Positions 15,871 to 50,962 of a stretch of DNA of 64,000 nucleotides are shown here, one piece after another. Below the pieces are notes generated by a model. The model saw nothing but the letters and a program-made list of their open reading frames with translations. It was not told the origin of the DNA and did no database searches. Positions within the stretch are counted from its first letter, which is position 1, and the number at the start of each line of letters is the position of its first letter. This DNA comes from Agelas oroides (taxonomy: Eukaryota; Porifera; Demospongiae; Agelasida; Agelasidae). Position numbers and translations under genes: made by a program. The stretch is from NCBI GenBank assembly GCA_949130485.1, contig OX422199.1:1545902-1609901 (forward strand), given 5' to 3'.

Positions 15871-22810
<6,940 letters not shown>

Positions 22811-24043: not shown

Positions 24044-27000
24044 ATGCTGCAGTGGTTCACCCTACTGTTAGCCACACTGACACTCAGTACAGTGGTCTCT
24101 GCTACCGATGTCCTCTTTGTCAAGCCCACCAATGACACACTGTGTCCACAACAGCCGTGTCACACTCTTGAGCACTATGCTCAGAGCTGGCAGCTCTACT
24201 TGACCTCCAACACAATAGTCCAGTTCTTACCAGGTGAGCACATTCTTGAGGGAGACTGGAACGTTTTGACAGTTGAGAATGTCTCCAACTTGACACTGAT
24301 TGGAAGTGACAGTGTGATTCGTGATAGCTCACCACTAGGTATACCTATGACTACAAGCAGAATCAACTGTAGAAGAGGCAAAACCTTATTTTTTTTCTCA
24401 AATATCACTGAACTGTTCATTGCAAAGCTTATATTCTCAGGGTGTGGTGGTGGGAAAGCAGCATTCACACTGTATGAAGTTTCCAATCTCATACTTGACA
24501 GTGTCACCATACGAAACAGCACTGGGACTGGACTAGTAGGTATTAATCTCAGAAAATCATTGATTCATCATTCGTCTTTCATGTTCAATCAGGCTGCCAA
24601 AGATTACTTTTGTAGTGGCAACATTATGTTGCTCTACGCAAAGTGCTCAGAAAGGATTAAAACTTACACACTGAATATAGCCTCTTCGTGGATCTTGTAT
24701 GGAAATGCCACCACTGAAATACCATGTGTTGGTGGTGCATATATGCTGGTTAGTGAGTCCTGCTACAACGTACGGGTAAACATCCACAATACTACATTGA
24801 AGGAGAATATGGGTGGAAACATGCTCCTCGCACTCAACAGTTTTGCAAGTAGCGTCATTACCATCACTGAGAGCCGCTTTGAAGCTGGATACAATTCAGT
24901 TGGTGGAGGAATACTAATAGCTACAGAACATGATGCTTCTCAATACCCTCAACATGCCCAAAGTAATCATGTGTACATCAACAACACAGAGTTTGTGGGC
25001 AATCGTGCAGAATCTGGAGGAGCAATGGCAGTAGTTCCATGTACAGGCACAGAGCTGCACATTAATGGATCAAAGTTTTACAACAATGTAGCACACGGTG
25101 GTGGGCATATTGCTGTCAGCTTGGGTTCCTACCAATGTGTGAACATCACAATTACAGTCAACAACAGTCTGTTTGAAGAGGGGAAAGCTACCAATGGTAG
25201 TGGTGGTGGAGTTGCAGTGCAAGGGGTCTGTAGTGATTTCCCATGTACAAATGGTAGTCGTATTTATATTAGCAACACACAGTTTGTGAAAAATTATGCC
25301 GAATTTAAGGGAGGTGCAGTGTCATTATATGGGTGTATTAGCACTGAGCTACATATAAATGAATCAGAATTTTACAACAATACAACACCATTAGCTGGTG
25401 GCCACATTTCATCAGAAATGCTGTCAGATTGTATTCTGTTTATTGTTATAAACAACAGTCGTTTTGAAAATGGAAAAGCTCTTGTTGGTGGAGCGATTTC
25501 AGTGTTTGCTGGTCATGGTTGCACATCATTAAGCAGTACCATACAGAAATCCGTTTACATTTTGAACAGCAAAGTCTATCGAAATATTGCTGATTTGGGA
25601 GGAGGAATAGCAATCCAGTTTAATCAGAGCTGTTTTGCTGCGAACGTTTTAATTCACAATGTTTTTCTTTCAAGGAATGCTGCGACTAAATCCGGAGGGA
25701 ATGTTTACTTGCCAAATAACTGCACAGCAGGAAACTCTGTAACAATCAGCAGGAGCACTGTGGAGTTTGGCAATGCTGGCGACAATGGTGGAGGAATGGT
25801 ATTTAAGGCAAATACTTCAGAGGCATGCTCATCTTCAATGATAAACCTCAAACCAACCATCATCACTATTGTGGACTCAACATTTCAATACAATACTGTT
25901 CGTTACCTCGGTGGTGGACTTCGTATTTCATTTTCCAATGGTTTCTCTGAGTACTCTTGCTGCAATACTGAAATAAACATCACAAACGTAACATTCCTTA
26001 ACAACAAAGTTTATGGAACAGGTGTTCTGACAAAAGGTGGTAATATCTTTATTGAGGATATTAGTGGGAAGTGGCTTAACAACTCAGTCAGGATTCATGA
26101 CTGTTTGATTGAAGGTGGGGTGGCGAGTTCAGGAGGTGGAATTTCACTGATGCAGGTGGTAAAGCATGCTATTTCTTCCCAGCAAGAAACCACTGAAATG
26201 GAAGGTTTATTTATCTCCAATACACAGTTCATATGTAACCAAGCAACTGATAGCACTAATGGAGCTTCACTTGTAGCCGAAATGGTGCTAAATGTTTCCA
26301 TGACACTGAACTCCTTGACACCAGCTCTCACCAAAAAACTCACAATCACAGACACTACATTTGACGGAACATGTTCTGATTCCAGCAATGTTTGTATAAC
26401 TGGTATGGGAATCAATGCTCCCTATTTACCAACTGGGAACAGTGTGACGTTTATCAATGTCTCATTCCGAGGGTATTCCACAAACGTTTCATCCCCACTT
26501 TCTACTTATCATTCACAGCAGTCTTCTGAATTGTCATTGGGTAATGGCTTTATGCAATATTTACCATCAGTCAGTACCACATTGTACACATACCAACCTG
26601 GAGTGGTACTTTCCTTTGTACCAAATGCAACCTTTATTAACTGTAAGTTCTATGAAAGCACTGCAGATAGTGCTCTTTATGCAACAAGTGCCAACATGTT
26701 CTTTGGAGGAAACATAACTTTTCGGGACAACATAGCCACATATGGTGCAGGAATGACGCTACTTGATAATTCTGTCATGTATCTCAGACCAAACACACAC
26801 ATCGTATTCTCTCACAACCATGCCACTTATGCAGGAGGTGCTATTTATGTGCAATCAGATGATGTTGGGAGCAGTCTCAGGTGCTTCTATCAATTTGATG
26901 GAATAAATCAAACCATATCTGACCTGAATATTGAGATTACATTTGAGAACAATACAGCATATTTTGCTGGCAGTGCACTGTATGGAGGTTTGGTAGACTT

Positions 27001-28993
27001 CTGTTTACTCGTGCCATTTGAAACCGAAAGAAGTAATTCTTTTGATTCTATATTCCAAGTACAAAACACAGATGATGACCCCACTGCAATCTCGTCTGAT
27101 CCATACCAGGTCTGCTTCTGTAACAACAGTAAACCACTATGTGGTATCCAAAAATTTTGGCACATGTACACGTATCCAGGAGCACTGTTTCATGTCCAAG
27201 CAGTAGTTGTGGGTCAGAAGTTTGGTATTGTTCCAGGTGTTGTGCGTGCTACACTTCAGAACACATCTGCTGTCTTGGGTGATCTTCAACAGTCTCAAGC
27301 CACGGGCAAGTCCTGCACTACACTGAACTACACTGTATACTCATCCCAGACAGTGGAAACAATTACTTGCAGGACTGAAACCATCCCAGGAAGAATGACT
27401 CTACCACGATTGATAATGAATGTGACACTGCTCAACTGCCCATGGGGCTTTACACTTAATGGTTATCCAACAAAATGTGATTGCGTAGATGAACTGCGAA
27501 GCCACCACATTACATGCAACATCACAACCCAGACAATCAGTCGCCCACCTCCACTGTGGATAGGATACTACTACTCTGGTAACGACACTGAACACCCGGT
27601 TGAGGGGGTCTTGGTGCATGATCAGTGCCCATTTGACTACTGCAAACGTAAACAGCTCTCCATACAGCTGAACGACTCAGACAAACAGTGCGCCTTCAAT
27701 CACTCAGGCATTCTCTGTGGAGCATGCAAGCCAGGCCTCAGCCTTGCCCTGGGAACATCCAGATGTCTGAAGTGCCCCAACAAGTACCTCATGCTGCTGT
27801 TTGCATTCACTGTTGCAGGCCTTGCACTTGTCTTCCTACTCATCCTCACCAACATGACAGTCTCAGAAGGAACCATCAATGGACTCATATTCTATGCTAA
27901 CATCATTCACATCAATCGAGCCATCTTCTTCCCAAGTGAAAGTACTGGAATAAACAAAATCGTATTGAATATTCTGTCCACTTTCATATCTTGGATCAAT
28001 CTTGACCTTGGAATTGAGACCTGCTTCTACAGTGGTATGGACATGTACACCAAGGCATGGCTACAGTTTCTCTTCCCTTTCTACATCTGGACTATTGTTG
28101 GTGGGATGATTGTCTCCAGCCATTATTCCACCACTGCAGCTAAACTGTTCAGAAGACATGCTGTGAAGGTGCTAGCTACACTCTTCCTACTGTCCTTTGC
28201 TAAACTGCAGCGTACCATCATCACAGTTCTCTCCTTCACCTTCCTCACCTACCCTGATGTGACTAAGATTGTGTGGTTGTATGACAGCAACATTGAGTAC
28301 TTACATGGGAAACACATCCCTCTATTCATCGCTGCCCTTCTTGCTCTTTTGTTCCTTGTGATCCCATACACCTTAGTGCTGTTCTTCATCCAGTGTCTTC
28401 TGAAGTTAAACTGCCGAATCTTCTTCTGGGTGAAGAAGTTGAAGCCATTGTTTGATGCCTACACTGGTCCATACAAGGACAGGTACCGGTTCTGGACTGG
28501 GTTTCTTCTTATTGTCCGCACAATTCTTTTCCTCATCTTTACTCTCGGCAACCCTGGTCTGAATCTTGCAGCAATAAGTGTCACTACCACCTGTCTAGCT
28601 TTCTCTCCAGCTGTCTACAAGAAAGTGTGGCTTACTGTGCTAGAGTACTCCCTACTACTCAATCTGAGTGCAGTTTCTGTTGCTACATTTTACTGTCGTT
28701 ACACCCAGTTCAGTGGCAATCAAGCATTGGTAGTGTATATTTCAGTCGGCACTGCCTTCATAACATTTTTTGGGATAATGGCCTATCATCTCTGCCAGTG
28801 CACTATCAATTCACGAGCCTGGAAGAACGTCTCAGATCGAGTTACTCAGAGGAGCAGTGATCGCGAACTAGTGAACATTGTAGCAGAGAGCTCAGATGAA
28901 GAGGAGGAGGAGGAACCAGCTCAAGCTGAGTTACGACCACTGATGTTGCAGTTTGATGAATACCGTGAACCAGTCCTGGTTTATGATGATTAG
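24044..28993 (+). CDS. Beta-helix ectodomain / multi-TM membrane protein, copy 1
   Basis: An intronless 1649-residue protein. I start at 24044 (MLQWFTLLLATLTLSTVVSA, a signal peptide) because all paralogues share this start; an upstream in-frame ATG exists at 24023. Next comes a conserved N-terminal module with a CPQQPCHTLEHYA motif, then from about 60 to 1000 a long series of short repeats of the type INNTxFVGNxAxxGGAxxV, rich in Asn-X-Ser/Thr sequons. The GGAI/FxxN pattern is that of right-handed parallel beta-helices such as bacterial Pmp-type autotransporters. Around 1212-1243 is a small Cys-rich module (HSGILCGACKPGLSLALG), then about eight to ten membrane helices (1246-1590) and a cytoplasmic tail with an EEEEEE run and the C-terminal REPVLVYDD. 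I do not recognise the membrane domain with certainty. The likely role is a surface receptor or adhesion protein, by inference. Confidence 0.9.
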   Translation: MLQWFTLLLATLTLSTVVSATDVLFVKPTNDTLCPQQPCHTLEHYAQSWQLYLTSNTIVQFLPGEHILEGDWNVLTVENVSNLTLIGSDSVIRDSSPLGIPMTTSRINCRRGKTLFFFSNITELFIAKLIFSGCGGGKAAFTLYEVSNLILDSVTIRNSTGTGLVGINLRKSLIHHSSFMFNQAAKDYFCSGNIMLLYAKCSERIKTYTLNIASSWILYGNATTEIPCVGGAYMLVSESCYNVRVNIHNTTLKENMGGNMLLALNSFASSVITITESRFEAGYNSVGGGILIATEHDASQYPQHAQSNHVYINNTEFVGNRAESGGAMAVVPCTGTELHINGSKFYNNVAHGGGHIAVSLGSYQCVNITITVNNSLFEEGKATNGSGGGVAVQGVCSDFPCTNGSRIYISNTQFVKNYAEFKGGAVSLYGCISTELHINESEFYNNTTPLAGGHISSEMLSDCILFIVINNSRFENGKALVGGAISVFAGHGCTSLSSTIQKSVYILNSKVYRNIADLGGGIAIQFNQSCFAANVLIHNVFLSRNAATKSGGNVYLPNNCTAGNSVTISRSTVEFGNAGDNGGGMVFKANTSEACSSSMINLKPTIITIVDSTFQYNTVRYLGGGLRISFSNGFSEYSCCNTEINITNVTFLNNKVYGTGVLTKGGNIFIEDISGKWLNNSVRIHDCLIEGGVASSGGGISLMQVVKHAISSQQETTEMEGLFISNTQFICNQATDSTNGASLVAEMVLNVSMTLNSLTPALTKKLTITDTTFDGTCSDSSNVCITGMGINAPYLPTGNSVTFINVSFRGYSTNVSSPLSTYHSQQSSELSLGNGFMQYLPSVSTTLYTYQPGVVLSFVPNATFINCKFYESTADSALYATSANMFFGGNITFRDNIATYGAGMTLLDNSVMYLRPNTHIVFSHNHATYAGGAIYVQSDDVGSSLRCFYQFDGINQTISDLNIEITFENNTAYFAGSALYGGLVDFCLLVPFETERSNSFDSIFQVQNTDDDPTAISSDPYQVCFCNNSKPLCGIQKFWHMYTYPGALFHVQAVVVGQKFGIVPGVVRATLQNTSAVLGDLQQSQATGKSCTTLNYTVYSSQTVETITCRTETIPGRMTLPRLIMNVTLLNCPWGFTLNGYPTKCDCVDELRSHHITCNITTQTISRPPPLWIGYYYSGNDTEHPVEGVLVHDQCPFDYCKRKQLSIQLNDSDKQCAFNHSGILCGACKPGLSLALGTSRCLKCPNKYLMLLFAFTVAGLALVFLLILTNMTVSEGTINGLIFYANIIHINRAIFFPSESTGINKIVLNILSTFISWINLDLGIETCFYSGMDMYTKAWLQFLFPFYIWTIVGGMIVSSHYSTTAAKLFRRHAVKVLATLFLLSFAKLQRTIITVLSFTFLTYPDVTKIVWLYDSNIEYLHGKHIPLFIAALLALLFLVIPYTLVLFFIQCLLKLNCRIFFWVKKLKPLFDAYTGPYKDRYRFWTGFLLIVRTILFLIFTLGNPGLNLAAISVTTTCLAFSPAVYKKVWLTVLEYSLLLNLSAVSVATFYCRYTQFSGNQALVVYISVGTAFITFFGIMAYHLCQCTINSRAWKNVSDRVTQRSSDRELVNIVAESSDEEEEEEPAQAELRPLMLQFDEYREPVLVYDD

Positions 28994-29486
28994 GACAATC
29001 AATGAACCACATCTTTTAATTCCTAAACAAAACAGGCTTAGATGTTCTAAAAATGTTTATTTTTTTTGTCATTTTAAGAAGCAGTGCACAACAAATCAAG
29101 CAACTATAGCTAGTTCTGTCAGATTGTGGGAGCTTTTGATGTTTCTTCAGTAATACAGTTTTATAATCGATTTGCAATAAACTAGAGTTGCTGAGCTGAC
29201 AAACCAGTGATGAGGTACATAATCCTTTTTTTATTGTCCAGTACTTAACTTGCAATGGACATGAGTTGCTGACAAACCAGTGATGAGGTACATATGCTTG
29301 TGACTAGCTATATCTACTCACTTCAGAAACAAATTGCTGGTTATGTAAAAACATTTTCTCTCATGAATGCGCATGATTTCTCATCATTTTAATGCATGAG
29401 CAGGGAACAACATGTGTGTACATGTGATGTTTGATAACATTATCTACTTGCAGATAAACAAACCTGGAGACCACATTAAGCAGCAT
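28994..29486. other. 3' flank of copy 1, duplicated after copy 2
   Basis: 28994-29340 is almost identical to the DNA after copy 2 (36890-37235), including GAGTTGCTGAGCTGACAAAC and its repeat. 29360-29460 matches the DNA just before copy 3 (37576-37690), ending in a TACTTGCAG splice-acceptor-like site at 29453. So the intergenic DNA is part of the duplicated unit. Confidence 0.8.
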
Positions 29487-30912
29487 GATGCAGTGGTTCA
29501 TTCTATCACTAGCCACACTGACATTCAGTACAGTGGTGTCTGCTACTGGTGTCCTCGTTGTCAAGCCCACCAATGAAACACCATGTCCACAACAGCCATG
29601 TCACACTCTTGAGCACTATGCTCAGAGCTGGCAGCTCTACCTGACCTCCAACACATAGTTCTTACTAGGTGAGCATGTTCTCGAGGGAGACTGGAATGAG
29701 TTGACAGTTGTGAACGTTTCTAACTTGACACTGATTGGAAGTGACAGTGTGGTTCTTGATAGTTCACCACTAGGTATACCTATGACTACAAGCAGAGTCA
29801 GCTGTAGAAGGGGGAAGACCGTGTTTTCTTACTCCAATGTCACTGAACTCTTAATTCATTGCAAGACTCATGTTCTCAGAGTGTGGTGGAAGGGAAACAA
29901 CACTCATACTCTATGAATTAAGTGTCTAATTTTGTACTTGATAGTGTCACCATTCAAAACAGCACTGGGACTGGACTGGTGGGTTTTAGCCTTAGAGAAT
30001 TCATCATTCTGCTTTCATGAGTCACTGAAGTTTATGCTATCAGTACTTGTTTTGTCTATCATGAGTGCTTAGAGATGATTGAAAATTTCATATTGTGCAT
30101 AACCTCTTCATGGATCTTGTTTGGAAAGGCCACCACTGAAGCAATAGATCCGAGAGGCCTAGCACTGCAAGTTGGTCAGTCCTGCTACAATGTAAAGGTA
30201 CAAATCCACAATACTACTTTGAAAGAGAATATGTTGGGTAATATGCTCCTCATGCTAAATGTTTTGCGCAAAACATCATTACCATTACTGACAGCCACTT
30301 TGAAGGTGGGTATGGCAGTGGTGGAGGGTTATTGATTATTCCAAGTCACAGTGGTTCTCCATGCAGTTCCCCAGCATGTCCAAAGTAATCATGTGTACAT
30401 TAACAACACGAAATTTGTTGGAAATTATGCAAAGTATGGGGGTGCAATGGCAGTATTGCCATATTCAGGCACATTAATAGTTTCGAAACAACACAGCACA
30501 AGATGGTGGACGTATTTCAATCATCTTGACACCCAACAATTGTGCAAGTGTAAACACGGCTATTGCAATCAACAACAGTCTCTTTGAAGATGGAAAAGCT
30601 ACTGGTAGAGGTGGTGGAGTTGCACTGCAAGGGACATTTGATACTGAATCCCAATGTACAAATGGCAATCATATTTCCATTAGCAAAATTTGAAACTATG
30701 CTGAAGTTGATCAATGGAGGTGCAGTGGCATTATGGGGGTACATATAGGCACGGGACTATATATCAAAGTTTTACAAGAATACTGCACCACCACCTGTAT
30801 TTGAAACTGCTGTCAGATCATGTTCTGTTCATTGTTATTGATAACAGGAAAAGCTGTTATTAATGGGGGAATTTGAGTGTTATTGAATGCTGCTAACAGT
30901 TGTATCTCTGGC
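29487..30912 (+). pseudogene. Broken, truncated beta-helix family copy
   Basis: Starts ATGATGCAGTGGTTCATTCT and keeps the N-terminal module. An early stop appears where the others read an open frame (ACACATAGTTCTTACT near 29651), followed by several frameshifts. Similarity stops near 30912 at a point matching about 39185 in copy 3, so the Cys-rich module, all membrane helices and the tail are missing. Its 30390-30720 segment is nearly identical to 38640-38990 of copy 3. It is either a decayed gene or a fragment that can still serve as donor in gene conversion. Confidence 0.9.
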
Positions 30913-31871: not shown

Positions 31872-31915
31872 ATAGGTACATGCTACAAGGCACATTGTGG
31901 AATTAAAAAGGACTG

Positions 31916-34900
31916 ATGCTGCAGTGGTTCATTCTATCACTAGCCACACTGACACTCAGTACAGTGGTCTCTGCTACTGGTGTTCTCTTTGTCAAGCCCA
32001 CCAATGACACACCATGTCCACAACAGCCGTGTCACACTCTTGAGCACTATGCTCAGAGCTGGCAGCTCTACCTGACCTCCAACACTATAGTCCAGTTCTT
32101 ACCAGGTGAGCACGTTCTTGAGGGAGACTGGAATGAGTTGACAGTTGTGAACATCTCCAACTTGACACTAATTGGAAGTGACAGTGTGGTTCTTGATAGT
32201 TCACCATTGGGTATACCTATGGCTACAAGCAGAATCAGCTGTAGAAGGGGGAAGACCGTGTTTTCTTACTCCAATGTCACTGAGTTATTCATTATAAAGC
32301 TCACATTCTCAGAGTGTGGTGGAGGGAAGGCAACACTCACATTGTACGAAGTTTCCAATCTCATACTTGACAATGTTGCCATACAAAACAGCATTGGGAC
32401 TGGACTGATGGGTCTTAACCTTGGAAAATCATCAATTCATCGTTCGTCTTTCATGTTCAATCAAGCCACTAGTGCTTTCTCTTGTAGTTCCAATGTTATG
32501 TTGTTCTATAAAAAATGTTCAGAGACAATTGAAACTTACGCACTGAATATAACCTCTTCGTGGATCTTGTTTGGAAATGCTACCACTGAATCAGGATGTG
32601 TGGGTGGTCTAAGTCTGGAACTTGGTCAGTTATGCTACAACATGAAGGTACACATCCTCAATACCACAATCAAAGGGAATATGGGTGGAAATGTGCTCCT
32701 TAAACTCAACAATGGTTTTGCACATAACATCATTACTATTGCTGACAGCCACTTTGAAGTTGGATTCACTTTAGACTTTGGTGGAGGAATATCAATATAT
32801 ACAGAGTACAATGCTTCTCAAGTAGCTCAGGTTGTTCAAAGTAATCGTGTGTACATCAACAACACAAAGTTTGTGGGAAATATTGCACCCTCTGGAGGTG
32901 CAATAGCAATATTACCAAGTACGGGAACTGAGGTATACATTAATGGATCAAAGTTTTACAACAATGTAGCGGATGGTGGTGGACATATTTTCATCAGCTT
33001 GGTCTCAAATTATTGCGCAAATGTAACTATCACAATAAACAACAGTCTTTTTGCAAATGGGGAAGCTACTAGTCATGGTGGTGGAGTTGCAGTGGTAGGG
33101 CCATATAGTGATTCTCAAAGTACAAATGGTAATTATATTTATATTAGCAACACACGATTTGTGGGAAATCATGCCCAGAGTGTGGGAGGTGCTGTGGCAT
33201 TGTTGGGGTGTTTAGGCGCTGAGCTAAAGATTGATGAGACAGGATTTTTCAATAATACAGCACCATTAGATGGTGGCCATATTGCATTGGAATTAAACTC
33301 AGATTGCATTCAGTTCATCATTGTCAATAACAGTCATTTTGAAGGTGGAAAAGCATATTTTGGTGGGGGGATTTCAATGCTTGCTGGAAGTGGTTGCACA
33401 TCAGTTAGCAGTACCATTCATAAATCTGTTTATATCATGAACAGCAAAATTTATCAAAATTTTGCTGAGTTTGCTGGTGGAGGATTGGCAATCAAATTCA
33501 ACCAGAGCTGTTTTGCTATCAACATTTTAATTCACAATGTGTCCCTTTCAAGAAATGTGGGAAACAATTTCCTATTGAGTGGAGGGAATATTTTCATTCC
33601 AAATATCTGCACAGCAGGAAACTCTATAACAATAAGCAGAAGCACTGTGGAGTTTGGCAATGCCAGTGGAATTGGTGGAGGAATGATATATGTAACACAT
33701 GCATTTCTGGGATGTCCATCTACTATGGTAAAACTCAAACCAACTAGCATCAACATTGTAGACTCAACCTTTCAATACAACACTGCCCGAAAAATGGGTG
33801 GTGGACTTGCCATCTTATTAGGTTCATTGGAGTATTTTTGCTGCAGTGCTGAAGTGAACATCAAAAATGTAATATTTTTCAACAACACAGTTTCTACAGT
33901 CAGTTTCGACACAGTTGATGGAGCAAAGCATTTTACAGGAGGTGGTAACATTTATACTGCTAATTTTAATGGGCAGCGGTTTAACAACAGTGTCAGGATT
34001 CATAGCTGCCTGATTGAAGGTGGGATTGCAATGTCAGGAGGTGGGATTTATTCAACAACACAACATGTAAACAGTGTAGGCTTCTGCCAGAAAAGTACTG
34101 AGGCTTTAATCATCTCCAATACTCGCTTTATATGCAACCGAGCAACATATGCAGGTTTTGCAGGTGCTTCGCTGTTGGTTGAAGAACTACCTAATTTTTA
34201 TAACATGACATTGTACTCCATGGCAGCAAAAACCGTTTACTTTAAGAAAATTAGAATTATAGACAGCATATTTGATGGAACCTGTGCTAATTTTGGCAAT
34301 ATTATTATTATCAATTTAGAAGCCTATTCTCCCTATTTACCAACAGGGTACAGTGTGGCGTTCATCAATGTCTCGTTTCAAGGGTATTCCACAGACCTTT
34401 CATTCCCACCTTCTACATTTCATTCTCAGAAGCTCTTTGTTAATCTCATTCTTACAAATACTGCTGAACCTGCTTTGTACACACCATACTCAGGAGTAAT
34501 GCTTTATTTTATTCCAAATGCAACTTTCATTGACTGTGAATTCTTTGAAAGCACTGTAGACAGTGCCCTTTATGCAGAAAGTACCAAGATGTTCTTTGGA
34601 GGCAATATAACATTCAGGGACAACATAGCCACATATGGAGGAGGACTGACACTACTTGATAACTCTGTTATGTACCTCACGCCAAACACACATATTATGT
34701 TCTCTCACAACCATGCTACTTATGCAGGAGGTGCTATTTATGTCCAGTCAGACAGTTTTTCATTTGGCAATCATATGTGCTTCTTTCAGTTTGATGGAAT
34801 AAACCAAACCATATCTGACCAGAATATTCAGATTACGTTTGTGAACAACACAGCATATTTTGCTGGCAGTGCACTGTATGGCGGTTTTGTAGACTTCTGT

Positions 34901-36889: not shown

Positions 36890-37715
36890 GACAATCAATG
36901 AACCACATCTTTTAATTCCTAAACAAAACAGGCTTAGGTGTTCTAAAAATGTTTATTTTTTTGTCATTTTAAGAAGCAGTGCACAACAAATCAAGCAACT
37001 ATAGCTAGTTCTGTCAGATTGTGGGAGCTTTTGATGTTTCTTCAGTAATACAGTTTTATAGTCGATTTGCAATAAACTAGAGTTGCTGAGCTGACAAACC
37101 AGTGATGAGGTACATAATCCATTTTTTATTGTCCAGTGCTTACCTTGCAATGGACATGAGTTACTGACAAACCAGTGATGAGGTACATATGCTTGTGACT
37201 ATATCTACTCACTTCAGAAACAATTTGCTGGTTACTACAGTTGTGTGACTAACCTTCTTATACTAATTCAAAGAATGCAGCACTGGAAAGAGGAGCTGAT
37301 ACTTGAATAGAATTCATCTACCCTGAATATTGAGTTACAACCACAGCATAGTTTGGAATTACCACTTTCTAAAACAGGGAATTTTTTTCTAGTACATACT
37401 AATCATTTTGTAGTAAGCCGCAAACTTGATGTGCATTCCGGAGCCAAGTTCATGCACGTAGCAGTGGCAGAAAGAGCTGAACATCTTTTGCCTCTTCGAA
37501 GTGTTCTGTGTTTTTCTCTGTAGACATTCAAATTTGGTGACTATAACCGGATCAAGAGGTATGTAAAAACAACAACTTTCTCTCATGAATGCATATGATT
37601 TGTCATCATTTTAATACATGAGCAGTGCACAACATGTGTGTACATGCATGGATGAAGTTTGATAACATTATTAACTTCTTGCAGGTAAACATACCTGGAG
37701 ACCACGAGCAACATA

Positions 37716-40700: not shown

Positions 40701-42662
40701 TCCTTTGATTCTATATTCAAAGTACAAAACACAGATGAAGATCCCAGTGCAATCTCATCTGACCCATACATGGCCTGTCCTTGTAATGGTGATAGACCCT
40801 ACTGTGGTAATCGTCCACAAGTTTGGTTTATGGACACATACCCAGGAGCACTGTTTCATGTCCAAGCAGTAGTTGTGGGTCAGAAGGATGGTATTGTGCC
40901 AGGTGTTGTTCGCGCTACATTTCAGAACTCATCTGCTGTCTTGGGTGATCTTCAGTATTCCCAAGCCACGGGCAAGTCCTGCACTACACTAAACTACACT
41001 GTGTACTCATCACAGACAGAGGAAACAATTACTTGCAGGACTGAAACCATTCCAAAGAGACTGAGCCTAATAGGATTGATAATAAATGTGACACTGCTCA
41101 ATTGTCCATGGGGCTTTACACTTACTGGTGCTCCGCCAAAATGTGATTGTGCAGATGAACTACGTAAACACCACATTGATACATGCAATATCACAACTCA
41201 AACAATCAGTCGTCCACCACCACTGTGGATAGGGTACTACCACTCTGATAACAACACTGAACACCCAGTTGAGGGGGTCTTGGTACATGATCACTGCCCA
41301 TTTGACTACTGCAAACCTGAACAGCTCTCCATACAGCTGAACGACTCGGACAAACAGTGCGCCTTCAATCACTCAGGCATTCTCTGTGGAGCATGCCAGC
41401 AAGGTCTCAGCCTTGCCCTGGGAACATCCAGATGTCTGAAGTGCTCCAACAAATACCTGATGCTGTTGTTTGCATTCACTGCTGCAGGCCTTGCACTTGT
41501 GTTCCTACTCACACTCACCAACATGACTGTCTCAGAAGGAACAATCAATGGACTCATATTCTATGCTAATATCATTCACATCAATCGAGCCATCTTCTTC
41601 CCAGACGAAAGTTCTGGTGTGAACAAAATCACATTGAGTATTCTGTCCACTTTCATAGCTTGGATCAATCTTGACCTTGGAATTGAGACCTGCTTCTACA
41701 ATGGTTTGGACATGTACACCAAGGCATGGCTACAGTTTCTCTTTCCCATTTACATCTGGACTATTGTGGGTGGTATGATTGTCTCCGGCCATTATTCCAC
41801 CATTGCAGCTAAACTGTTCAGAAGGCATGCTGTGAAGGTACTAGCCACACTCTTCCTACTGTCCTTTGCTAAACTGCAGCGTACCATCATCACAGCTCTC
41901 TCCTTCACCTTCCTGACCTACCCTGATGGCACCAAAACTGTGTGGCTCTATGACAGCAACATTGAGTACTTACATGGAAAACACATCCCACTATTCATCG
42001 CTGCCATTCTTGCTCTTCTGTTCTTTCTGATCCCCTACACCTTAGTGCTGTTCTTCATCCAGTGTCTGGCAAAGTTAAATTGCCGAATCTTTTTCTGGGT
42101 GAAGAAGCTGAAGCCATTGTTTGATGCCTACACTGGTCCATACAAGGACAGGTACCGATTCTGGACTGGGTTTCTTCTTATTGTCCGCACAATTCTTTTC
42201 CTCATCTTTACTCTTGGCAACCCTGGTCTAAATCTTGCTGCAATAAGTGTCACTAGCACCTGTCTAGCTTTCTCTCCGGCTGTTTACAAGAAAGTGTGGC
42301 TTACTCTGCTGGAGTACTCCCTGCTACTCAATCTGGGTGCAGTTTCAGTTGCTACATTTTACTGTCATGACCCTCAGTTGAGTGGTAATCAAGCAGTGGT
42401 AGCGTATATTTCAGTCGGCATAGCCTTCATAACATTTGTCATGATATTGGTCTACCATCTCTACCAGTGCACCATCAATTCACGAGCCTGGAAGACTGTC
42501 TCAGATCGAGTTACTCAGAGGAGCAACAATCGTGAACTAGTGAACATTGCAGTAGAAGGGTCAGATGAAGAGGAGGAGGAAGAACCAGCTCAGGCTGAGA
42601 TACGACCACTGATGTTGCAGTTTAATGAATACCGTGAACCGGTCCTGGTTTATGATGATTAG
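37716..42662 (+). CDS. Beta-helix ectodomain / multi-TM membrane protein, copy 3
   Basis: An intronless 1648-residue paralogue starting MLQWLTLLLATLTLS. A splice-acceptor-like TTCTTGCAG ends at 37683, 32 bases upstream, as in copies 1 and 4, which suggests a 5'-UTR intron. The N-terminal roughly 300 residues are nearly those of copy 1 (shared NQAAKDYFCSGNI and NIHNTTLKENMGGNM), while the SWLTVENVFNLTLIGSDSMV stretch is shared with copy 4 instead. The tail and 3' UTR (AGGATTGAAACTTA...) are of the copy-4 type. So it is a patchwork of both subfamilies. Membrane domain and REPVLVYDD end are intact. Confidence 0.9.
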   Translation: MLQWLTLLLATLTLSTVVSATGVLFVKPTNDTSCPQQPCHTLEHYAQSWKLYLTSNTIVQFLPGEHILEGDWSWLTVENVFNLTLIGSDSMVHNSSPLGIPMATSIINCRRGKTLFFFSNITELFIAKLVFSGCGGGKAAFTLHEVSNLILDSVTIRNSTGTGLVGINLRKSLIHHSSFMFNQAAKDYFCSGNIILLYAKCSEMIETYVLNITSSWILYGNATTEIPCVGGAYIPVSESCYNIQVNIHNTTLKENMGGNMFLILNSFASSVITITDSHFEAGYNSFGGGILIATEHDASQYPQHAQSNHVYINNTKFVGNYAKYGGAMAVLPYSGTNVYINGSKFQNNTAQNGGHISIIVTPITCASTNTTTAINNSLFEDGKATGSGGGVALQGTFDIESQCTNGNHISISNTQFVGNHAEVDGGAVALWGYIGTELYIDKSGFYKNTAPLIGGHLYLELLSDHALFIAINSSHFQSGKAAAGGGVSVLLNAADNCILVSSTIHNSVYILNSKIYQNVADLGGGIAIQLFNQSCIAANVLIHNVSISRNNATMSGGNIYSANLCTAGNSITISSSTVEFGNSGGNGGGMGFSAGSFKTRAPSTVSLKPTTVNIVDSTFQHNTACDYGGGLGIVFLHFCCSVKMNITNVKFSKNKIGEVQATFSGTKLNDVTSGGNILIYDNAGLWFNNSVRIHNCLIEGGEAGVGGGITIKHTASWQKIPEVEWIAISSTLFICNRATQDLPTGGASLQVVGNYSRPQQPLTLSTIKKITITDTTFDGTCDNSTNVMLDGFPVGYPFLTPMYNVVFINVSFQGYSTNLSTYHSQQLFDDHLILNTVHSAAVALYFQQPGVMLYFIQNATFIDCEFFESTVESALNAVGTNMFFGGNITFRDNIATYGAGLSLVDNSVMYLTPNTHIMFSHNHATYAGGAIYVQSDSFTYGNLMCFYQFDAINQDISDLNIQITFENNTAYFAGGALYGGFVDFCSPPPFVETNISFDSIFKVQNTDEDPSAISSDPYMACPCNGDRPYCGNRPQVWFMDTYPGALFHVQAVVVGQKDGIVPGVVRATFQNSSAVLGDLQYSQATGKSCTTLNYTVYSSQTEETITCRTETIPKRLSLIGLIINVTLLNCPWGFTLTGAPPKCDCADELRKHHIDTCNITTQTISRPPPLWIGYYHSDNNTEHPVEGVLVHDHCPFDYCKPEQLSIQLNDSDKQCAFNHSGILCGACQQGLSLALGTSRCLKCSNKYLMLLFAFTAAGLALVFLLTLTNMTVSEGTINGLIFYANIIHINRAIFFPDESSGVNKITLSILSTFIAWINLDLGIETCFYNGLDMYTKAWLQFLFPIYIWTIVGGMIVSGHYSTIAAKLFRRHAVKVLATLFLLSFAKLQRTIITALSFTFLTYPDGTKTVWLYDSNIEYLHGKHIPLFIAAILALLFFLIPYTLVLFFIQCLAKLNCRIFFWVKKLKPLFDAYTGPYKDRYRFWTGFLLIVRTILFLIFTLGNPGLNLAAISVTSTCLAFSPAVYKKVWLTLLEYSLLLNLGAVSVATFYCHDPQLSGNQAVVAYISVGIAFITFVMILVYHLYQCTINSRAWKTVSDRVTQRSNNRELVNIAVEGSDEEEEEEPAQAEIRPLMLQFNEYREPVLVYDD

Positions 42663-43037: not shown

Positions 43038-43058
43038 TGACTGGAATTATGAGTCATT

Positions 43059-43136: not shown

Positions 43137-43263
43137 GTGCTAACACAGCTGGTACAGTTCTAATTGACAGGTATTGAAACAGGTCAGTCAATCTGACAGG
43201 TATTGAGCAGTGTGGACAGTATTTAAGGGGTACAGCTTACAACCACACATATGAGTATCATCA

Positions 43264-43945
43264 GTGGCTATGGAGATTATCACAACACAGAAAGGAGGAG
43301 AAGCTCTCATCTGGCAGGGGTGCAAGTTCACCCTTAACCGCAAGATGGTAAATGGGAAGAAATACTGGAGGTGTGCTAAGAGGATTTGCCCAGCTAGAAC
43401 CACAACAGAGGGAAACGAAGTCCTACAGCAAACTAACAGTCACAATCATCCTGTGGATGGGGTTGAAGCTGAAGTGGAGAGGGTAAAGCATGGGCTAAGG
43501 AAGCGAGCACGAGAGGAGGTCACCCCTATTCCTGCCATCTACAATGATGCATTGGTGGACATAGCCACTCAAGTAGAAGATGAGGCAGTTGCTGCACGAC
43601 TTCCAACCTTTCCAAGCCTAAAGTCTTCTATGTATCGTTCTCGAAGGAGCAGACTACCCCCCTCTTCCCATGAGCCAAGAAGATATTCGAATTGAAGGCA
43701 GATGGCAGACAACATTATCGGGAGAACAGTTCTTTTTACGGAAGGAAGGTGAAGTTCTGATCTTTGCCACGCACACAAACATGCGTCTCTTAGCAGAAGC
43801 TACAACAATTTATGTGGATGGCACATTTGAAATTTGCCCGAGGCTGTTTTATCAAGTGTTCACCATCAATGCCTTCATCCATGGCCAACAGTTCCCACTT
43901 GTGTATGGGTTACTACCTGGCAAATCAAGAGATATATACCACCTA
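43264..43945 (+). mobile_element. FLYWCH zinc finger plus N-terminal part of a MULE-type transposase (frameshifted, truncated)
   Basis: The first frame (43264-43695) encodes a FLYWCH-type zinc finger: NRKMVNGKKYWRCAKRICPA followed by the SHNHP metal-binding end. It continues into RSRRSRLPP, then the frame shifts near a run of six C's at about 43660. The second frame (to 43978) has GEVLIFATHTNMRLL, YVDGTFEICPRLFYQVFTI and PLVYGLLPGKS, the start of the Mutator-like (MULE) transposase domain with the first catalytic Asp in VDGTF. It stops after KSRDIY; later catalytic residues are missing. The last few residues and stop come from the flanking RGS22 exon fragment. Not functional as it stands. Confidence 0.82.
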
Positions 43946-44060
43946 TTAGTCCAGAATGGCAGACTGATTTTGCTTTAGCATCTCCTGTGTGGTGTGGGCA
44001 TGGCACATCTCCTGTGGAAAACGGTTTCAAGGCAGAACTTGAGGGGGAAGGTTTAGCTTT
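43946..44060 (-). pseudogene. RGS22 exon-15 fragment, right part
   Basis: TAGTCCAGAATGGCAGAC and CATCTCCTGTGTGGTGTGGG match 52912-52977 (start of RGS22 coding exon 15). The match continues past the splice acceptor into intron sequence (GAACTTGAGGG... versus GAACTTGAGAG...). Because intron DNA is included, this is a genomic duplication, not a retrocopy. Confidence 0.82.
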
Positions 44061-44189
44061 GTTGGAAAATAGGTGAGTGGATTTCATTGGTAGCTTATTA
44101 ATAATTTGCTAAGAATTCAACAATTAACACCAATGAGTCTATAAGGCAGGTGCGAGTCACACCTACAGGCCTGCTCTAGTTTACAGCAG

Positions 44190-44710
44190 TGATCAACAAG
44201 ATGACTTTATCTTACCATTGCAGCACTGCGGTCTACAAGGAACTTCCTCACAGTGACCATCATATTGAAATTGACTGTCTGTGTCTTACCATTGCAGCAT
44301 TGCGGTCTACAAGGAACTTCCTCACAGTGACCATCATATTGAAATTGACCTTACCATTGTGGCATTGCGGTCTACAAGGAACTTCCTCACAGTGACCATC
44401 ATATTGAAATTGACCTTACCATTGTGGCATTGCGGTCTACAAGGAACTTCCCAGTGACCATCATATTGAAATTGACTGTCTGTGTCTTACCATTGCAGCA
44501 TTGCGGTCTACAAGGAACTTCCTCACAGTGACCATCGTATTGAAATTGACTGTCTGTGTCTTACCATTGTGGCATTGCTGTGTACAAAGAACTTCCTCAC
44601 AGTGACCACCAAATTGACTTTATCTTACCATCGGCGGCATTGCTGTGTACAAGGAACTTCCCTCACAGTGACCACCAGGATATGACTATCTTACCATTGT
44701 GGCGCTGCTG
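44190..44710. repeat. Tandem array with units of about 60-75 bp
   Basis: Seven to eight units with the core ATTGC(A/G)GCATTGCGGTCTAC + AAGGAACTTCCTCACAGTGA + CCATCATATTGAAATTGAC. Unit length varies because the CTGTCTGTG linker is present or absent. The right-hand units are more diverged. Confidence 0.9.
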
Positions 44711-44864
44711 AAATTCAGTCTGCATGCGATATTTAACTAGTATTATTATCACATGGTTGCATGCAAGTTGAATTTCACTGCATGTACATAAAGGTGGAGA
44801 AGTAAGATTCAGTTGGAGCTAACAAGAAACAAAAGAGGTATGTGGCAGCATGGTTTTACTGATG

Positions 44865-45480
44865 CATTACCGTATAGTAGATTTGAGATCCTTTCGCGGG
44901 AGAAAACTCTCGCGAATTTCGCGCTTCGTCAGCAATTTGCGAAGGTTTTATCCGCGAAAATCCGCACACTGAATCGCCGCGAAACACTGAAAGATTGCTC
45001 AGACCAGTTACGAGCTATTCTTCGCTACTGCTAAGTTACTTTATAGTCAATAGAGCGCAGATTTGGTGCTACCAATACCATGCCCAATTTGTAATGCCAG
45101 TGTTTTTACCGTATCCTCCCAAAATCGCGACAGCGTAGGATCGTGTTGTCTCACTACGCGAGAGAGTAGGAGTGAATGTTGCATCCTCTCGCTGGCAAGG
45201 CAGAATTTTTCTTGTAGACGCATAGGCGTAGGAAGCAATTTGGAAGTGTGGAGGCCATGTTGTGGCACATGAAGCGCAGCGGAATTTCTTTAGACGATGA
45301 CATCGCTACGCATGGCTGCGAATTTTTTCAAAAGTGCGCACCTTACGGGATACGTAACGGGGCGTGGTCAACAGTTACTAACCGCGAAGCGGTTGCACAA
45401 CACTAGACTACAGCTGCAAAACACGAACATGAAGAGAGACCCTCAACGCGTTCTTCACAGCGAGAACCGATAGGTTACCT
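44865..45480. other. CpG-rich block of unknown origin
   Basis: It is notably richer in CG dinucleotides than its surroundings (TTTCGCGGGAG, ACTCTCGCGAATTTCGCGCT, ACTACGCGAGAGAGTAGG). It contains short inverted motifs but no complete gene. It lies between the tandem array and copy 4; it may be an unrecognised mobile element or a promoter island. Confidence 0.4.
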
Positions 45481-45991
45481 TGTACGAGCGGTTATGCATA
45501 CGCGGCCGAACTTGGTACTGAACCAAAATCTAACCACCCAAGCAACCGAGAGCGACGAACGACACTCCAGATCGATAGTACGTACTCGAGGGCCAGACGG
45601 AGAGTTTTGTTGCAAGGGTCGTTCGGTTTTTGAGAAATAGCCCGTTGTCCAGTAAACCGTACACACCTCACGACTGTTCGCCTCTGTGAAATTACCGCTA
45701 CGGTTCCTATGCCACTGACGTGTATGGTAGCCTTGGATGCCACGTAGCTATAACGTACCCGTACTTGTCTAGTCACATTCGCATGCCGATAGTTTAAATG
45801 CATGTGGGTTCACGTAATTTGTGAAAGCCATCAAGTTTCTTCCGCAAAGAATCCATGCGGATAGTAACAGTTCTTGTTAGACAACAGTTTATACAAGCGT
45901 ATAAATTATGTATGGCACTTAAATACCATTACCTATGTGCAGGCGAACACAAGAGTTGAGACATCCGTGCATGGAGATCCCAAGGAGGGTG

Positions 45992-48900
45992 ATGCTGCAG
46001 TGGTTCACCCTACTGTTAGCCACACTGACACTCGGTACAGTGGTCTCTGCTACTGGTGTCCTCTTTGTCAAGCCCACCAATGACACATCATGTCCACAAC
46101 AGCCATGTCACACTCTCGAACACTATGCTAAGAGCTGGCAGCTCTACCTGACCTCCAACACAATAGTCCAGTTCTTACCAGGTGAACACGTTCTTGAGGG
46201 AGACTGGAGTTGGTTGACAGTTGAGAACGTCTTCAACTTGACACTGATTGGAAGTGACAGTATGGTCCACAATAGCTCGCCACTAGGTATACCTATGGCT
46301 ACAAGCATCGTCAGCTGTAGAAGAGGCAAAACCTTGTTTCTTTTCTCAAATGTCACTGAACTGTTCATTTCAAGGCTTACAATCTCAGAGTGTGGACAAG
46401 GGGAAGTTGCACTGTTATTGTATGAAGTGTCTAATCTCGTATTTGATAGTGTTACCATACAAAACAGCAACGGGACCGGACTGATGGGTACCAACCTCAG
46501 AGAATCATCGATCCATCGTTCTGCTTTTGTGTTTAATAATCAAGCCACCAGTGCTTTGTCTTGTAACATCAATGTAGCATTGCGCTACACAGACAGTAAG
46601 TGCTCAGAAATGATTGAAACTTTCACACTAAACATAACCTCTTCACGAATCATGTTTGGGAATTCCACCAATGAAGCATTAACATGTCCAAGTGGCCTGA
46701 GCCTGCGAATGAGTCAGTCCTGCTACAACATGAAGGTACACATCCACAATACTACATTGAGGGAAAATGTGGGTGGAAATATGCTGCTCTTACTGAATGG
46801 TTTTGCACATAATATCATCACCCTTGCTGATAGCCACTTTGAAAGTGGTACTGTACAAACCTTAAGTGGTACTGGTGGTGGGATATTCATAACTTCTATA
46901 GGAGATGACAATCCTCCCCAAGTTTCTCATCCTGTACAAAGTAATCGTGTGTATATCATCAACACAGTGTTTGCAAAGAATCGTGCAGAGTTTGGACTCG
47001 GAGGTGCAATTGCAGTATCATGTACAGGCACTGAGCTCTACATTGATGGATCAAAGTTTCATAACAACATAGCGTATTTAGGTGGACACATTGCTATGAT
47101 AGCCTCAACCCCCGAAACTTGTGCAAACACGACTATTGCAATCAACAACAGTCTTTTTGAAGGTGGAAAAGCTACTGGTAGTGGTGGTGGTGGTGGTGCT
47201 GTTGTAGTGTTGGGGCCAAACACTAATATTTTCCCATGCACAAATTGTAATCATATTTCTATTAACAACACACGATTTGTGGGAAATTATGCCCATGGTA
47301 GTGGAGGTGCAGTGGCTTTATATGGGTGTGTAGGTGCTGAGCTGAATATTGATAGGTCAGAATTTTACAACAATACAACACCATCAGCTGGTGGCCACAT
47401 TGGATTGCAATTGCAGCTGTCAGATGACATTCAACTCATCACTATCAACAACAGTCATTTTGAAGGTGGAAAAGCTCATATTGGTGGGGCGATTTCATTG
47501 TTTGCTGGTGGTGGTTGTATGTCCGTAACCAGTACCATACAGAAATCTCTGTACATCATGAACAGCAAAATTTATCGAAATGTTGCTAATTTTGGTGGAG
47601 GAATAGCAATGACATTCAACCACAGCTGTTTTGCTTTTGAGGTTTTAATTCACAATGTATCCTATTCAAGGAATGCAGGAACTAATTCCGTCGGAGGGAA
47701 TGTTTACTTGGCAAATCTCTGCACAGCAAAAAACACTATAACAATCAGCAGAAGCTCTGTGGAATTTGGCTATGCCGATGATGCTGGTGGAGGAATGTCA
47801 ATTACAACAAATGATTCTCAGGAATGCCCGTCTTCAATTGTAAGCCTCAAACCAACTAACATCAACATTGTAGACTCACGCTTTCAGTATAACACTGCCC
47901 GTAGGATGGGTGGTGCACTTGTTATTATATTTGACTCATCTCAGTACTTTTGCTGCAGTGCTGAAGTGAGCATTACAAATGTAACATTCCTCAACAACAA
48001 AGTTGGTACAGTTCCAGTGTCACGTAATGGAGAAGAACTCATTACAAGTGGTGGTAATATATTCATTCAGGATAGTACTACAGGACAGTGGCTTAACAAC
48101 ACAGTCAGGATTCATAGCTGCCTGATTGAAGGTGGGGTGGCAATGTCAGGAGGTGGAATTAGACTGATGTATTTAGTAAAATTTGCTGCTCCCTGGCAGA
48201 AAAATGCTGAAATGGAAGGCTTATTCATCTCTAACACACGATTCATATGTAACCAAGCAACTAATAACAGTTATGCAGCTTCACTGCTGGTTGAAGGTGA
48301 CCTGCTTGACAATTATTCCATGACACTTAACTCCTTGACACCAATTTTCATCAAGAAACTCTTAATTGTGGACACTACATTTGATGGGAGTTGTGCTGCT
48401 TCTAGCAGCAATGTCAAAATTAATGGTTTGAAAGCCGTTAGCTATTTACCAACGGTGTACAGTGTAGTGTTTGTTAATGTCTCATTTAGAGGGTATTACA
48501 CAAACAGTTCATCCCCTCTTTCCACATTTCATCCTCGGCAGCTTGCTGACTGGTCCTTAGACAATGACTTGAAGCACTATATAACTGACCGTACATTGTA
48601 CACACTATCACCAGCAGTGCAACTGTTCTTTATCCCAAATGCAACTTTTTTCGACTGTGAGTTTATTGAAAGCTATAGTGCACTTTATGTAGCAAGTACT
48701 AACACATTTTTCGGACTGATGCTAGTTGATAACTCTGTCATGTATCTCAGACCAGACACACATATTATGTTCTCTCGCAACCATGCCACACACGCAGGAG
48801 GTGCTATTTATGTAGAGTCAGTTGACAGTCATGGCACTCCCGGGTGTTTCTATCAGTTTTATGAAGTGAATCAGACCAACTCTGACCTGAATATTCAGAT

Positions 48901-50962
48901 TACCTTTGTGAACAACACAGCATATTTTGCTGGTAGTGCACTGTATGGAGGTTTGGTAGACAACTGTGTATTTGATACAACTATTATCAGGAAAAACACT
49001 TCCTTTGATTCTGTATTCAAAGTACAAAACACAGATGATGACCCCACTGCAATATCTTCTGATCCATACCAGGTCTGCTTCTGTAACAACAATAAACCAC
49101 TATGTGGTAATCAAACCTATTTATCTATGCACACGTATCCAGGAGCACTGTTTCATGTTCAAGCAGTAGTTGTAGGCCAGAAGTTTGGTATTGTTCCAGG
49201 TGTTGTGCTTGCTGGACTTGTTAAAAACACATCTACTGTCTTGGGTGACCTTCAAGAGTCCCAGTTCACAGGCAAGTCCTGCACTACACTAAACTACACT
49301 GTATACTCATCCCAGACAGAGGAAACAATCACACTAGTGACTGAAATAATTCCAGGAAGAGTGACTCTAGATGAACACATAGTAGATGTGACACTGTTAC
49401 CTTGCCCATGGGGCTTTACACTTAATGGTCATCCAACAAAATGCAATTGCGTTGATGAACTGCGAAGCCACCACATTACATGCAATATCACAACCCAGAC
49501 AATCAGTCGCCTGCCTCCACTGTGGATAGGGTACTACCACTCTGATAACAACAGTCAACACCCAGTTGAGGGGGTCTTGGTGCATGACCATTGCCCATTT
49601 GACTACTGCAAACGTAAACAGCTCTCCATACAGCTGAATGACTCAGACAAACAGTGTGCTTTCAATCACTCAGGCATTCTCTGTGGAGCATGCCAGCCAG
49701 GTCTGAGCCTTGCCCTGGGAACATCCAGATGTCTGAAGTGTCCCAACAAATACCTGATGCTGCTGTTTGCATTCGCTGCTGCAGGCCTTGCACTTGTGTT
49801 CCTACTCACACTCACCAACATGACAGTCTCAGAAGGAACCATCAATGGACTCATATTCTATGCTAACATCATTCACATCAATCGAGCCATCTTCTTCCCA
49901 AACGAAAGTACTGGAATAAACAAAATCGTATTGAATATTCTGTCCACTTTCATAGCTTGGATCAATCTTGACCTTGGAATTGAGACCTGCTTCTACAACG
50001 GTATGGACATGTACACCAAGGCATGGCTACAGTTTCTCTTTCCCATCTACATCTGGACTATTGTGGGTGCGATGATCGTCTCCAGCCATTATTCCACCAT
50101 TGCAGCTAAACTGTTCAGAAGGCATGCCGTGAAGGTGCTTGCTACACTCTTCCTACTGTCCTTTGCTAAACTGCAGCGTACCATCATCACAGTTCTCTCC
50201 TTCACCTTCCTGACCTACCCCGATGGAACTAAGACTGTGTGGCTCTATGACAGCAACATTGGATACTTACATGGGAAGCACATCCCATTATTCATCGCTG
50301 CCGTTCTTGCTCTTCTGTTCCTTCTGATACCCTACACTTTAGTGCTGTTCTTCATCCAGTGTCTGCCCAAGTTAAACTGCCGAATCTTTTTTTGGGTGAA
50401 GAAGTTGAAGCCATTGTTTGATGCCTACACTGGTCCATACAAGGACAGGTACCGATTCTGGACTGGGTTTCTTCTTATTGTTCGCACAATTCTTTTCCTC
50501 ATCTTTACTCTTGGCAACCCTGGTCTGAATCTTGCTGCAATAAGTGTCAGTAGCACCTGTCTAGCTTTCTCTCCAGCTGTCTACAAGAAAGTGTGGCTTA
50601 CTCTGCTAGAGTACTCCCTGCTACTCAATCTGGGTGCAGTTTCTGTTGCTACCTTTTACTGTCGTGACCCTCAGTTCAGTGGCAGTCAAGCAGTAGTAGT
50701 GTTTATTTCAGTTGGCACTGCCTTCATAACATTTGTTGGAATATTGGCCTACCATCTGTATAAGTGCACCATCAATTCACGAGCCTGGACGACTGTCTCA
50801 GATCGAGTTACTCAGAGGAGCAGTCATCGTGAACTGGTGAACATTACAGTAGAAGGGTCAGACGAAGAAGAGGAGGAGGAAGAACCATCTCAGGCTGAGA
50901 AGCGACCACTGATGTTGCGGTTTGATGAATACCGTGAACCAGTCCTGGCTTATGATGATTAG
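45992..50962 (+). CDS. Beta-helix ectodomain / multi-TM membrane protein, copy 4
   Basis: An intronless 1656-residue paralogue starting MLQWFTLLLATLTLGTVVSA. In-frame ATGs upstream at 45935 and 45971 are present, but CAG at 45940-45942 looks like a splice acceptor and family comparison favours 45992. Same architecture as the other copies. An in-frame deletion of about 15 residues removes the GGNITFRDNIATYG segment of one beta-helix repeat (NTFFG joins directly to LMLVDNSVMYL). The ectodomain carries its own variants, including a Gly run (SGGGGG, near 47180). The membrane domain is close to copy 3 (FIAWINLDLGIETCFYNG), and the tail has a longer acidic run before PSQAEKRPLML. Confidence 0.9.
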   Translation: MLQWFTLLLATLTLGTVVSATGVLFVKPTNDTSCPQQPCHTLEHYAKSWQLYLTSNTIVQFLPGEHVLEGDWSWLTVENVFNLTLIGSDSMVHNSSPLGIPMATSIVSCRRGKTLFLFSNVTELFISRLTISECGQGEVALLLYEVSNLVFDSVTIQNSNGTGLMGTNLRESSIHRSAFVFNNQATSALSCNINVALRYTDSKCSEMIETFTLNITSSRIMFGNSTNEALTCPSGLSLRMSQSCYNMKVHIHNTTLRENVGGNMLLLLNGFAHNIITLADSHFESGTVQTLSGTGGGIFITSIGDDNPPQVSHPVQSNRVYIINTVFAKNRAEFGLGGAIAVSCTGTELYIDGSKFHNNIAYLGGHIAMIASTPETCANTTIAINNSLFEGGKATGSGGGGGAVVVLGPNTNIFPCTNCNHISINNTRFVGNYAHGSGGAVALYGCVGAELNIDRSEFYNNTTPSAGGHIGLQLQLSDDIQLITINNSHFEGGKAHIGGAISLFAGGGCMSVTSTIQKSLYIMNSKIYRNVANFGGGIAMTFNHSCFAFEVLIHNVSYSRNAGTNSVGGNVYLANLCTAKNTITISRSSVEFGYADDAGGGMSITTNDSQECPSSIVSLKPTNINIVDSRFQYNTARRMGGALVIIFDSSQYFCCSAEVSITNVTFLNNKVGTVPVSRNGEELITSGGNIFIQDSTTGQWLNNTVRIHSCLIEGGVAMSGGGIRLMYLVKFAAPWQKNAEMEGLFISNTRFICNQATNNSYAASLLVEGDLLDNYSMTLNSLTPIFIKKLLIVDTTFDGSCAASSSNVKINGLKAVSYLPTVYSVVFVNVSFRGYYTNSSSPLSTFHPRQLADWSLDNDLKHYITDRTLYTLSPAVQLFFIPNATFFDCEFIESYSALYVASTNTFFGLMLVDNSVMYLRPDTHIMFSRNHATHAGGAIYVESVDSHGTPGCFYQFYEVNQTNSDLNIQITFVNNTAYFAGSALYGGLVDNCVFDTTIIRKNTSFDSVFKVQNTDDDPTAISSDPYQVCFCNNNKPLCGNQTYLSMHTYPGALFHVQAVVVGQKFGIVPGVVLAGLVKNTSTVLGDLQESQFTGKSCTTLNYTVYSSQTEETITLVTEIIPGRVTLDEHIVDVTLLPCPWGFTLNGHPTKCNCVDELRSHHITCNITTQTISRLPPLWIGYYHSDNNSQHPVEGVLVHDHCPFDYCKRKQLSIQLNDSDKQCAFNHSGILCGACQPGLSLALGTSRCLKCPNKYLMLLFAFAAAGLALVFLLTLTNMTVSEGTINGLIFYANIIHINRAIFFPNESTGINKIVLNILSTFIAWINLDLGIETCFYNGMDMYTKAWLQFLFPIYIWTIVGAMIVSSHYSTIAAKLFRRHAVKVLATLFLLSFAKLQRTIITVLSFTFLTYPDGTKTVWLYDSNIGYLHGKHIPLFIAAVLALLFLLIPYTLVLFFIQCLPKLNCRIFFWVKKLKPLFDAYTGPYKDRYRFWTGFLLIVRTILFLIFTLGNPGLNLAAISVSSTCLAFSPAVYKKVWLTLLEYSLLLNLGAVSVATFYCRDPQFSGSQAVVVFISVGTAFITFVGILAYHLYKCTINSRAWTTVSDRVTQRSSHRELVNITVEGSDEEEEEEEPSQAEKRPLMLRFDEYREPVLAYDD

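Follow-up and report, generated by a model that had tools for sequence, protein, structure and literature searches.

Introduction

The genome of the sponge Agelas oroides contains, on contig OX422199.1, a tandem cluster of very long genes that raises two questions: what kind of protein these genes encode, and what repeated copies of such a protein might do for the animal. The cluster lies in a stretch of 64,000 nucleotides (positions 1,545,902 to 1,609,901 of the contig), referred to here as the window, and it was first noticed in a preliminary description made from the letters alone. Computation gives each intact copy a beta-helix rod, a stretch with 12 cysteines, a membrane half nearly identical from copy to copy, and an acidic tail. 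We put at about one half the probability that the four are paralogous multi-pass cell-surface proteins, either receptors or adhesion receptors. They look like an apparent undescribed receptor family whose copies swap pieces of sequence.

Four intact copies and one broken copy had been proposed on the same strand, and both the open reading frames and a frame-by-frame match bear this out (Table 1). The lengths first given, 1648–1657 residues, fit those of copies A, B, C and D (1649, 1657, 1648 and 1656) when all are counted from the shared start, MLQW. Identity over the whole protein is 72–78% in the six pairs. The broken copy aligns only to residues 1 to about 498, roughly a third of the protein counted from the N-terminus, in frames 1, 3 and 1, with frame 2 contributing a further 23 residues. 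In copy D, 15 residues common to A, B and C are absent at 48712/48713 (alignment columns 917–931) with the frame kept; these belong to the C-terminal part of the helix. The genes had been called intronless. Each intact coding region is indeed a single exon, but an acceptor-like TTGCAG (A, C and the broken copy) or GTGCAG (D) lies at most 60 bases upstream of the start, which leaves room for an intron in the 5′ untranslated region. AATAAA is found 182–232 bp 3′ of the stop codon in A, B and D, and is absent within 600 bp 3′ of the stop of copy C.

The Ectodomain

Paired rung motifs of the form [FILVM]xxN-GGx occur 8–12 times per copy, compared with means of 0.7–1.1 and maxima of 5–6 in shuffled sequences. 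TIGR01376, with a curated cut-off of 15 bits, scores 18.0 bits in copy A and 17.6 in copy D, the two copies scanned. These results uphold the description of the repeats as Pmp-like, of the GGAI/FxxN type, and the cluster proteins have both the paired motifs and the right-handed beta-helix of the Pmp/POMP repeat proteins. PF02415 reached 15.2 bits in copy A, under its cut-off of 20.6, and was not listed for B, C or D at E ≤ 0.1; no autotransporter model was listed by Pfam for any of the four copies. N-glycosylation sequons number 32–38 per copy in the outer 1238 residues, about twice expectation (shuffle means 17–19, maxima 28–32), as the earlier remark on a sequon-rich ectodomain had it.

Structure prediction, which had been named as the check on a beta-solenoid ectodomain of some 900 residues, gave a beta-helix for copy A. 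The fold thus stands, supported by both the model and fold comparison, at a reduced length: the AlphaFold2 model is confident mostly over residues 116–816 (about 24368–26470), some 700 residues, with weaker helix on both sides. The predicted local distance difference test score (pLDDT) is at least 70 for 552 of the 1112 residues modelled and falls to near 22 beyond about residue 978. Fold matches of this model, mainly spanning its residues 2–517, include pertactin and the adhesin PfbA, with sequence identities of 8–15% in the rows listed. Among viral proteins there were 72 matches at E ≤ 10 and three at E ≤ 0.001, and those with names were mostly beta-helix or tail proteins.

The Membrane Half

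The Cys-rich juxtamembrane module of the preliminary description is present, with all 12 cysteines invariant. DUF7630 matches it weakly and under cut-off in all four copies (best E 0.0083, or 0.0036 for a shorter piece of copy A). Ten hydrophobic segments follow in every copy, in keeping with the eight to ten helices first counted. Judged from hydropathy and charge, nine of the ten probably cross the membrane with the N-terminus outside, an arrangement that would place the basic loops at residues 1366–1386 and 1457–1489, and the acidic tail, on the inner side. The tail is acidic as had been claimed, but the ending REPVLVYDD does not extend to copy D, which has REPVLAYDD. The membrane halves of the other copies are 89–96% identical to that of copy A.

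Fung_rhodopsin gave a partial match under cut-off (E 0.0008–0.001) in two of the four halves, or one of four in another scan, and was treated as chance. Profiles of the membrane half and of the ectodomain found nothing among PDB sequences at E ≤ 10. Similar Cys and membrane motifs may occur in uncharacterised marine invertebrate proteins.

Variation Within a Rung and Exchange Between Copies

The differences between copies are concentrated in one part of each rung. Columns are invariant in 54% of cases at offsets −16 to −5 before GG and in 25% at +4 to +16 after it, offsets that were picked after the profile had been inspected. With 16 anchors, a contrast this large was reached by one only of 975 circular anchor shifts, the unshifted one, and by two of 20000 random anchor sets. 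Gap columns are also more frequent in the variable segment (13.5% versus 6.9%), which on the model covers a strand's last residues and the following loop, one such segment per rung. The contrast shows in the loops as well as by rung register: thirteen loops have at least six residues, of which ten are 8–38% invariant and three are 57–67% invariant.

Positive selection on the ectodomain was considered but finds no support in the pairwise tests. Only one of 168 pair-windows of 120 codons had a nonsynonymous rate (dN) above the synonymous rate (dS), in B–C from about A residue 559 (0.323/0.301, ratio 1.07), and three further pair-windows had dN/dS of 0.86–0.96; these tests are pairwise averages over six pairs.

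The relationships of the four copies change along the protein. Copy A groups with C, and B with D, at A residues 90–330; A with D, and B with C, at 841–1200; and A with B, and C with D, at 1220–1656. The limits of these segments were set after the pattern of informative sites had been seen. In the approximately unbiased test every rejected alternative had p ≤ 0.004, and the segment 331–840 favours no tree. The 316 informative sites fall into 115 runs, compared with a shuffle mean of 211 (none of 10000 as low), and the 74 strictly synonymous third positions into 36 runs, compared with 49 when shuffled (12 of 10000). A tract of about 1 kb at the 3′ ends of A and B is 98% identical, a likeness that assembly error could mimic.

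In the membrane half dS is 0.04–0.22, versus 0.37–0.48 outside it. Since dS falls together with dN, the conservation of the membrane half is due in part to exchange or recency, beyond constraint alone. The conserved membrane half and variable outer part of the preliminary description are a real contrast, to which exchange contributes.

Comparison With Known Proteins

Among the described eukaryotic proteins found, the nearest overall plan is that of GrlP, GrlQ and GrlR of Dictyostelium (1407, 1095 and 1604 residues), which according to the excerpted text of PMC1885808 have a long N-terminus like that of Chlamydia Pmp joined to a multi-pass receptor domain. Theirs is a family 3 (GABA-B-like) domain with seven crossings, whereas the cluster proteins appear to have nine crossings and match no 7tm Pfam model, and the table in that source marks no signal peptide for the three (PMC1885808). 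7tm_3 was not listed at E ≤ 10 for any of the four membrane halves, in a search whose HMMER filters lose most weak matches.

Trichomonads have an expanded family of Pmp surface proteins with FxxN/GGA repeats outside the cell and, in T. vaginalis, an acidic cluster in the cytoplasmic tail, as given in the excerpts of PMC6701047. These proteins have one C-terminal transmembrane domain, in contrast to the multi-pass half of the cluster proteins (PMC6701047). In the chlamydial Pmp autotransporters the rungs are likewise built from paired FxxN and GGA motifs, but the proteins end in an outer-membrane beta-barrel rather than in long hydrophobic segments, and their variable loops lie between FxxN and GGA, whereas variation in the cluster proteins falls mostly after GGx (PMC10715098, PMC11166332, in the portions available). 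The same portions report paired motifs outside Chlamydia in rungs of other overall shape, so that common descent with the Pmps is not implied. Sponge adhesion G protein-coupled receptors (GPCRs) also carry an ectodomain on a multi-pass membrane domain; in the excerpted part of PMC4302439 their ectodomains are of other types and 28 of 40 have a GPS site, whereas neither GPS nor 7tm_2 was listed by Pfam at E ≤ 10 in any of the four cluster proteins. With the sequence tests for class C and adhesion GPCRs both failing, the cluster proteins are filed under neither.

Pattern searches returned 41 and 18 stretches in genome contigs and 5 and 113 in viral contigs, and a relative was confirmed in none. 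The Cys-module pattern gave 54 viral stretches; profiles of the membrane and ectodomain alignments found nothing at E ≤ 1 among their 3609 six-frame fragments of at least 60 residues. A motif peptide is given for 38 of these fragments, of which 32 by count resemble HNH endonucleases. The contig collections are prokaryotic and viral and so say little about eukaryotic relatives. The statement that no animal family with this layout had been described gains a little support from the open-access full-text literature, where none appears among the matches listed; most subscription papers and bioRxiv preprints fall outside that scope.

Possible Functions

If the cluster proteins are receptors or adhesion receptors, the sequon-rich rod would offer variable rung segments for ligand binding. 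Because the variable segment recurs at an equivalent position from rung to rung, these segments should lie along one face of the rod, and different copies might thereby bind different ligands, such as glycans or microbial or self surfaces. The Cys-rich neck would join the rod to the shared multi-pass module and perhaps move on binding, the common membrane half would pass a common signal, and the acidic tail may meet cytoplasmic partners. Exchange between copies would keep the membrane half uniform while reshuffling the outer segments.

Several results weigh against this account. Foldseek gives the ectodomain only low-scoring matches (best E 5.1e-4, TM-scores, or template modelling scores, of 0.19/0.26, and one of 342 matches at E ≤ 0.001). 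The structure model of the membrane half, at pLDDT 30, is unusable, and no Pfam family passes its cut-off for this half in any of the four copies; the proposed check for a housekeeping transporter family was accordingly empty, an absence of evidence. Over model residues 226–720, strands are less conserved than non-strand positions (0.40 versus 0.49 invariant), a reversed contrast that makes "variable loops" alone an inadequate description. Finally, dN/dS is 0.56–0.67 at the variable rung positions and 0.28–0.42 on the scaffold in the six pairs, which indicates weaker constraint and not positive selection, and leaves selection for diversity unsupported.

A role in recognition had been suggested from the tandem, variable arrangement. 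The cluster could encode receptors of innate immunity or allorecognition, with different microbes or tissue recognised from copy to copy or from one individual's haplotype to another's. Such receptors would account for the tandem paralogues, the broken copy, the variable segments on a fixed scaffold and the mosaic exchange. This assignment is nonetheless doubtful, given that the pairwise dN/dS tests found no convincing positive selection and that gene conversion with tandem duplication is frequent in ordinary gene families. Slightly more doubtful is the fuller proposal of an undescribed animal receptor superfamily, which would combine a rod of interchangeable recognition segments, an unclassified nine-pass signalling domain and tandem exchange, and would serve to distinguish between microbes or between self and non-self. 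The proteins might instead serve adhesion to matrix or substrate, the rod binding matrix glycans and the membrane half acting mainly as an anchor. Beta-helix rods are adhesins elsewhere, with pertactin and PfbA among the fold matches, and in Chlamydia the Pmps bring about the first attachment to host cells, according to the excerpts of PMC6701047; one crossing would be enough for an anchor, however, and ten conserved hydrophobic segments suggest more. We regard this role as unlikely.

The proteins might also be ion channels or transporters that sense through the ectodomain, a TRP-like mechanosensor being one example; this would suit the roughly nine crossings, rather than seven, in our reading of the hydropathy. 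The Cys and membrane motifs may loosely resemble those of protist and fungal TRP-like proteins, as may an RFW...R segment. Pfam lists no channel or transporter model, TRP included, at E ≤ 10, and we regard this function as quite unlikely. Least probable is a membrane-tethered polysaccharide-processing enzyme, with lyase, epimerase or hydrolase activity in the beta-helix: the non-catalytic helices of pertactin and PfbA match well too, and the low sequence identity of the listed fold rows also speaks against it.

Should the receptor or adhesion-receptor account be correct, a ligand-presenting rod familiar mainly from bacteria would be combined in an animal with a multi-pass membrane module of no established class, in tandem copies that trade segments. 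Whether recognition in an early-branching animal makes use of varying beta-helix rungs would then be a testable question. Even a plain adhesion family would represent a class of large surface proteins for which no Pfam model reaches its cut-off in the membrane half.

Other Features of the Window

Table 1. Coordinates of the gene copies, the parts of copy A and the exchange tracts, in window positions
Feature	Positions	Strand	Remarks
Copy A	24023–28993	+	Intact open reading frame, 1656 residues; in-frame ATG homologous to the start of the other copies at 24044
Copy A ectodomain	24101–27169	+	Right-handed parallel beta-helix (AlphaFold2 model, fold comparison, motif pairs)
Copy A juxtamembrane region	27170–27790	+	12 invariant Cys (A residues 1098–1251)
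Copy A membrane domain	27791–28783	+	Ten hydrophobic segments, probably nine crossings (hydropathy and charge)
Copy A cytoplasmic tail	28784–28990	+	Acidic, 17 D/E in 69 residues
Recent exchange tract, copy A side	28320–29343	+	3′ end of the coding sequence plus 350 bp of flank beyond it
Broken copy	29485–30906	+	N-terminal part without membrane half; frame changes
Copy B	31916–36889	+	Intact open reading frame, 1657 residues
Recent exchange tract, copy B side	36216–37234	+	Counterpart in copy B and its 3′ flank
Copy C	37716–42662	+	Intact open reading frame, 1648 residues
Copy D	45935–50962	+	Intact open reading frame, 1675 residues; ATG at 45992 homologous to the start of the other copies

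Between copies C and D lie a FLYWCH zinc finger (43264–43695, + strand; PF04500, E 1e-12), which may be left over from a Mutator-like transposon, and a minisatellite of 5.8 copies of 74 bp (44210–44617). Upstream of the cluster, a reading frame open at the window start (1–1194, + strand, 397 residues) has leucine-rich repeats (PF13516, E 5e-12) followed by hydrophobic stretches, and is possibly the end of a leucine-rich repeat membrane protein or an NLR-like protein. A single-exon gene at 7776–9467 (+ strand) encodes a secreted-looking protein of 563 residues that contains a VWA domain (PF13519, E 1e-14) between VWA_N and PDC/Cache-like stretches, both below cut-off, and has a hydrophobic C-terminus; its layout resembles that of the alpha2delta subunits of calcium channels. 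Downstream, exon-like fragments at 55138–61775 (− strand) perhaps belong to a multi-RGS protein: 61065–61775 has an RGS match below cut-off (PF00615, 20.0 versus 23.9 bits) and 55138–55644 reads like an RGS domain by eye. The leucine-rich repeat and VWA matches, which exceed their cut-offs, together with the RGS fragment, the FLYWCH element and the microsatellites fit an animal host such as a sponge. An inverted repeat at 13513–13668 and 18349–18504, with arms of 156 nt that are 89% complementary and 4680 nt apart, may represent the ends of a DNA transposon. The window also contains a near-perfect minisatellite of 14.5 copies of 35 bp (4749–5257) and three microsatellites.
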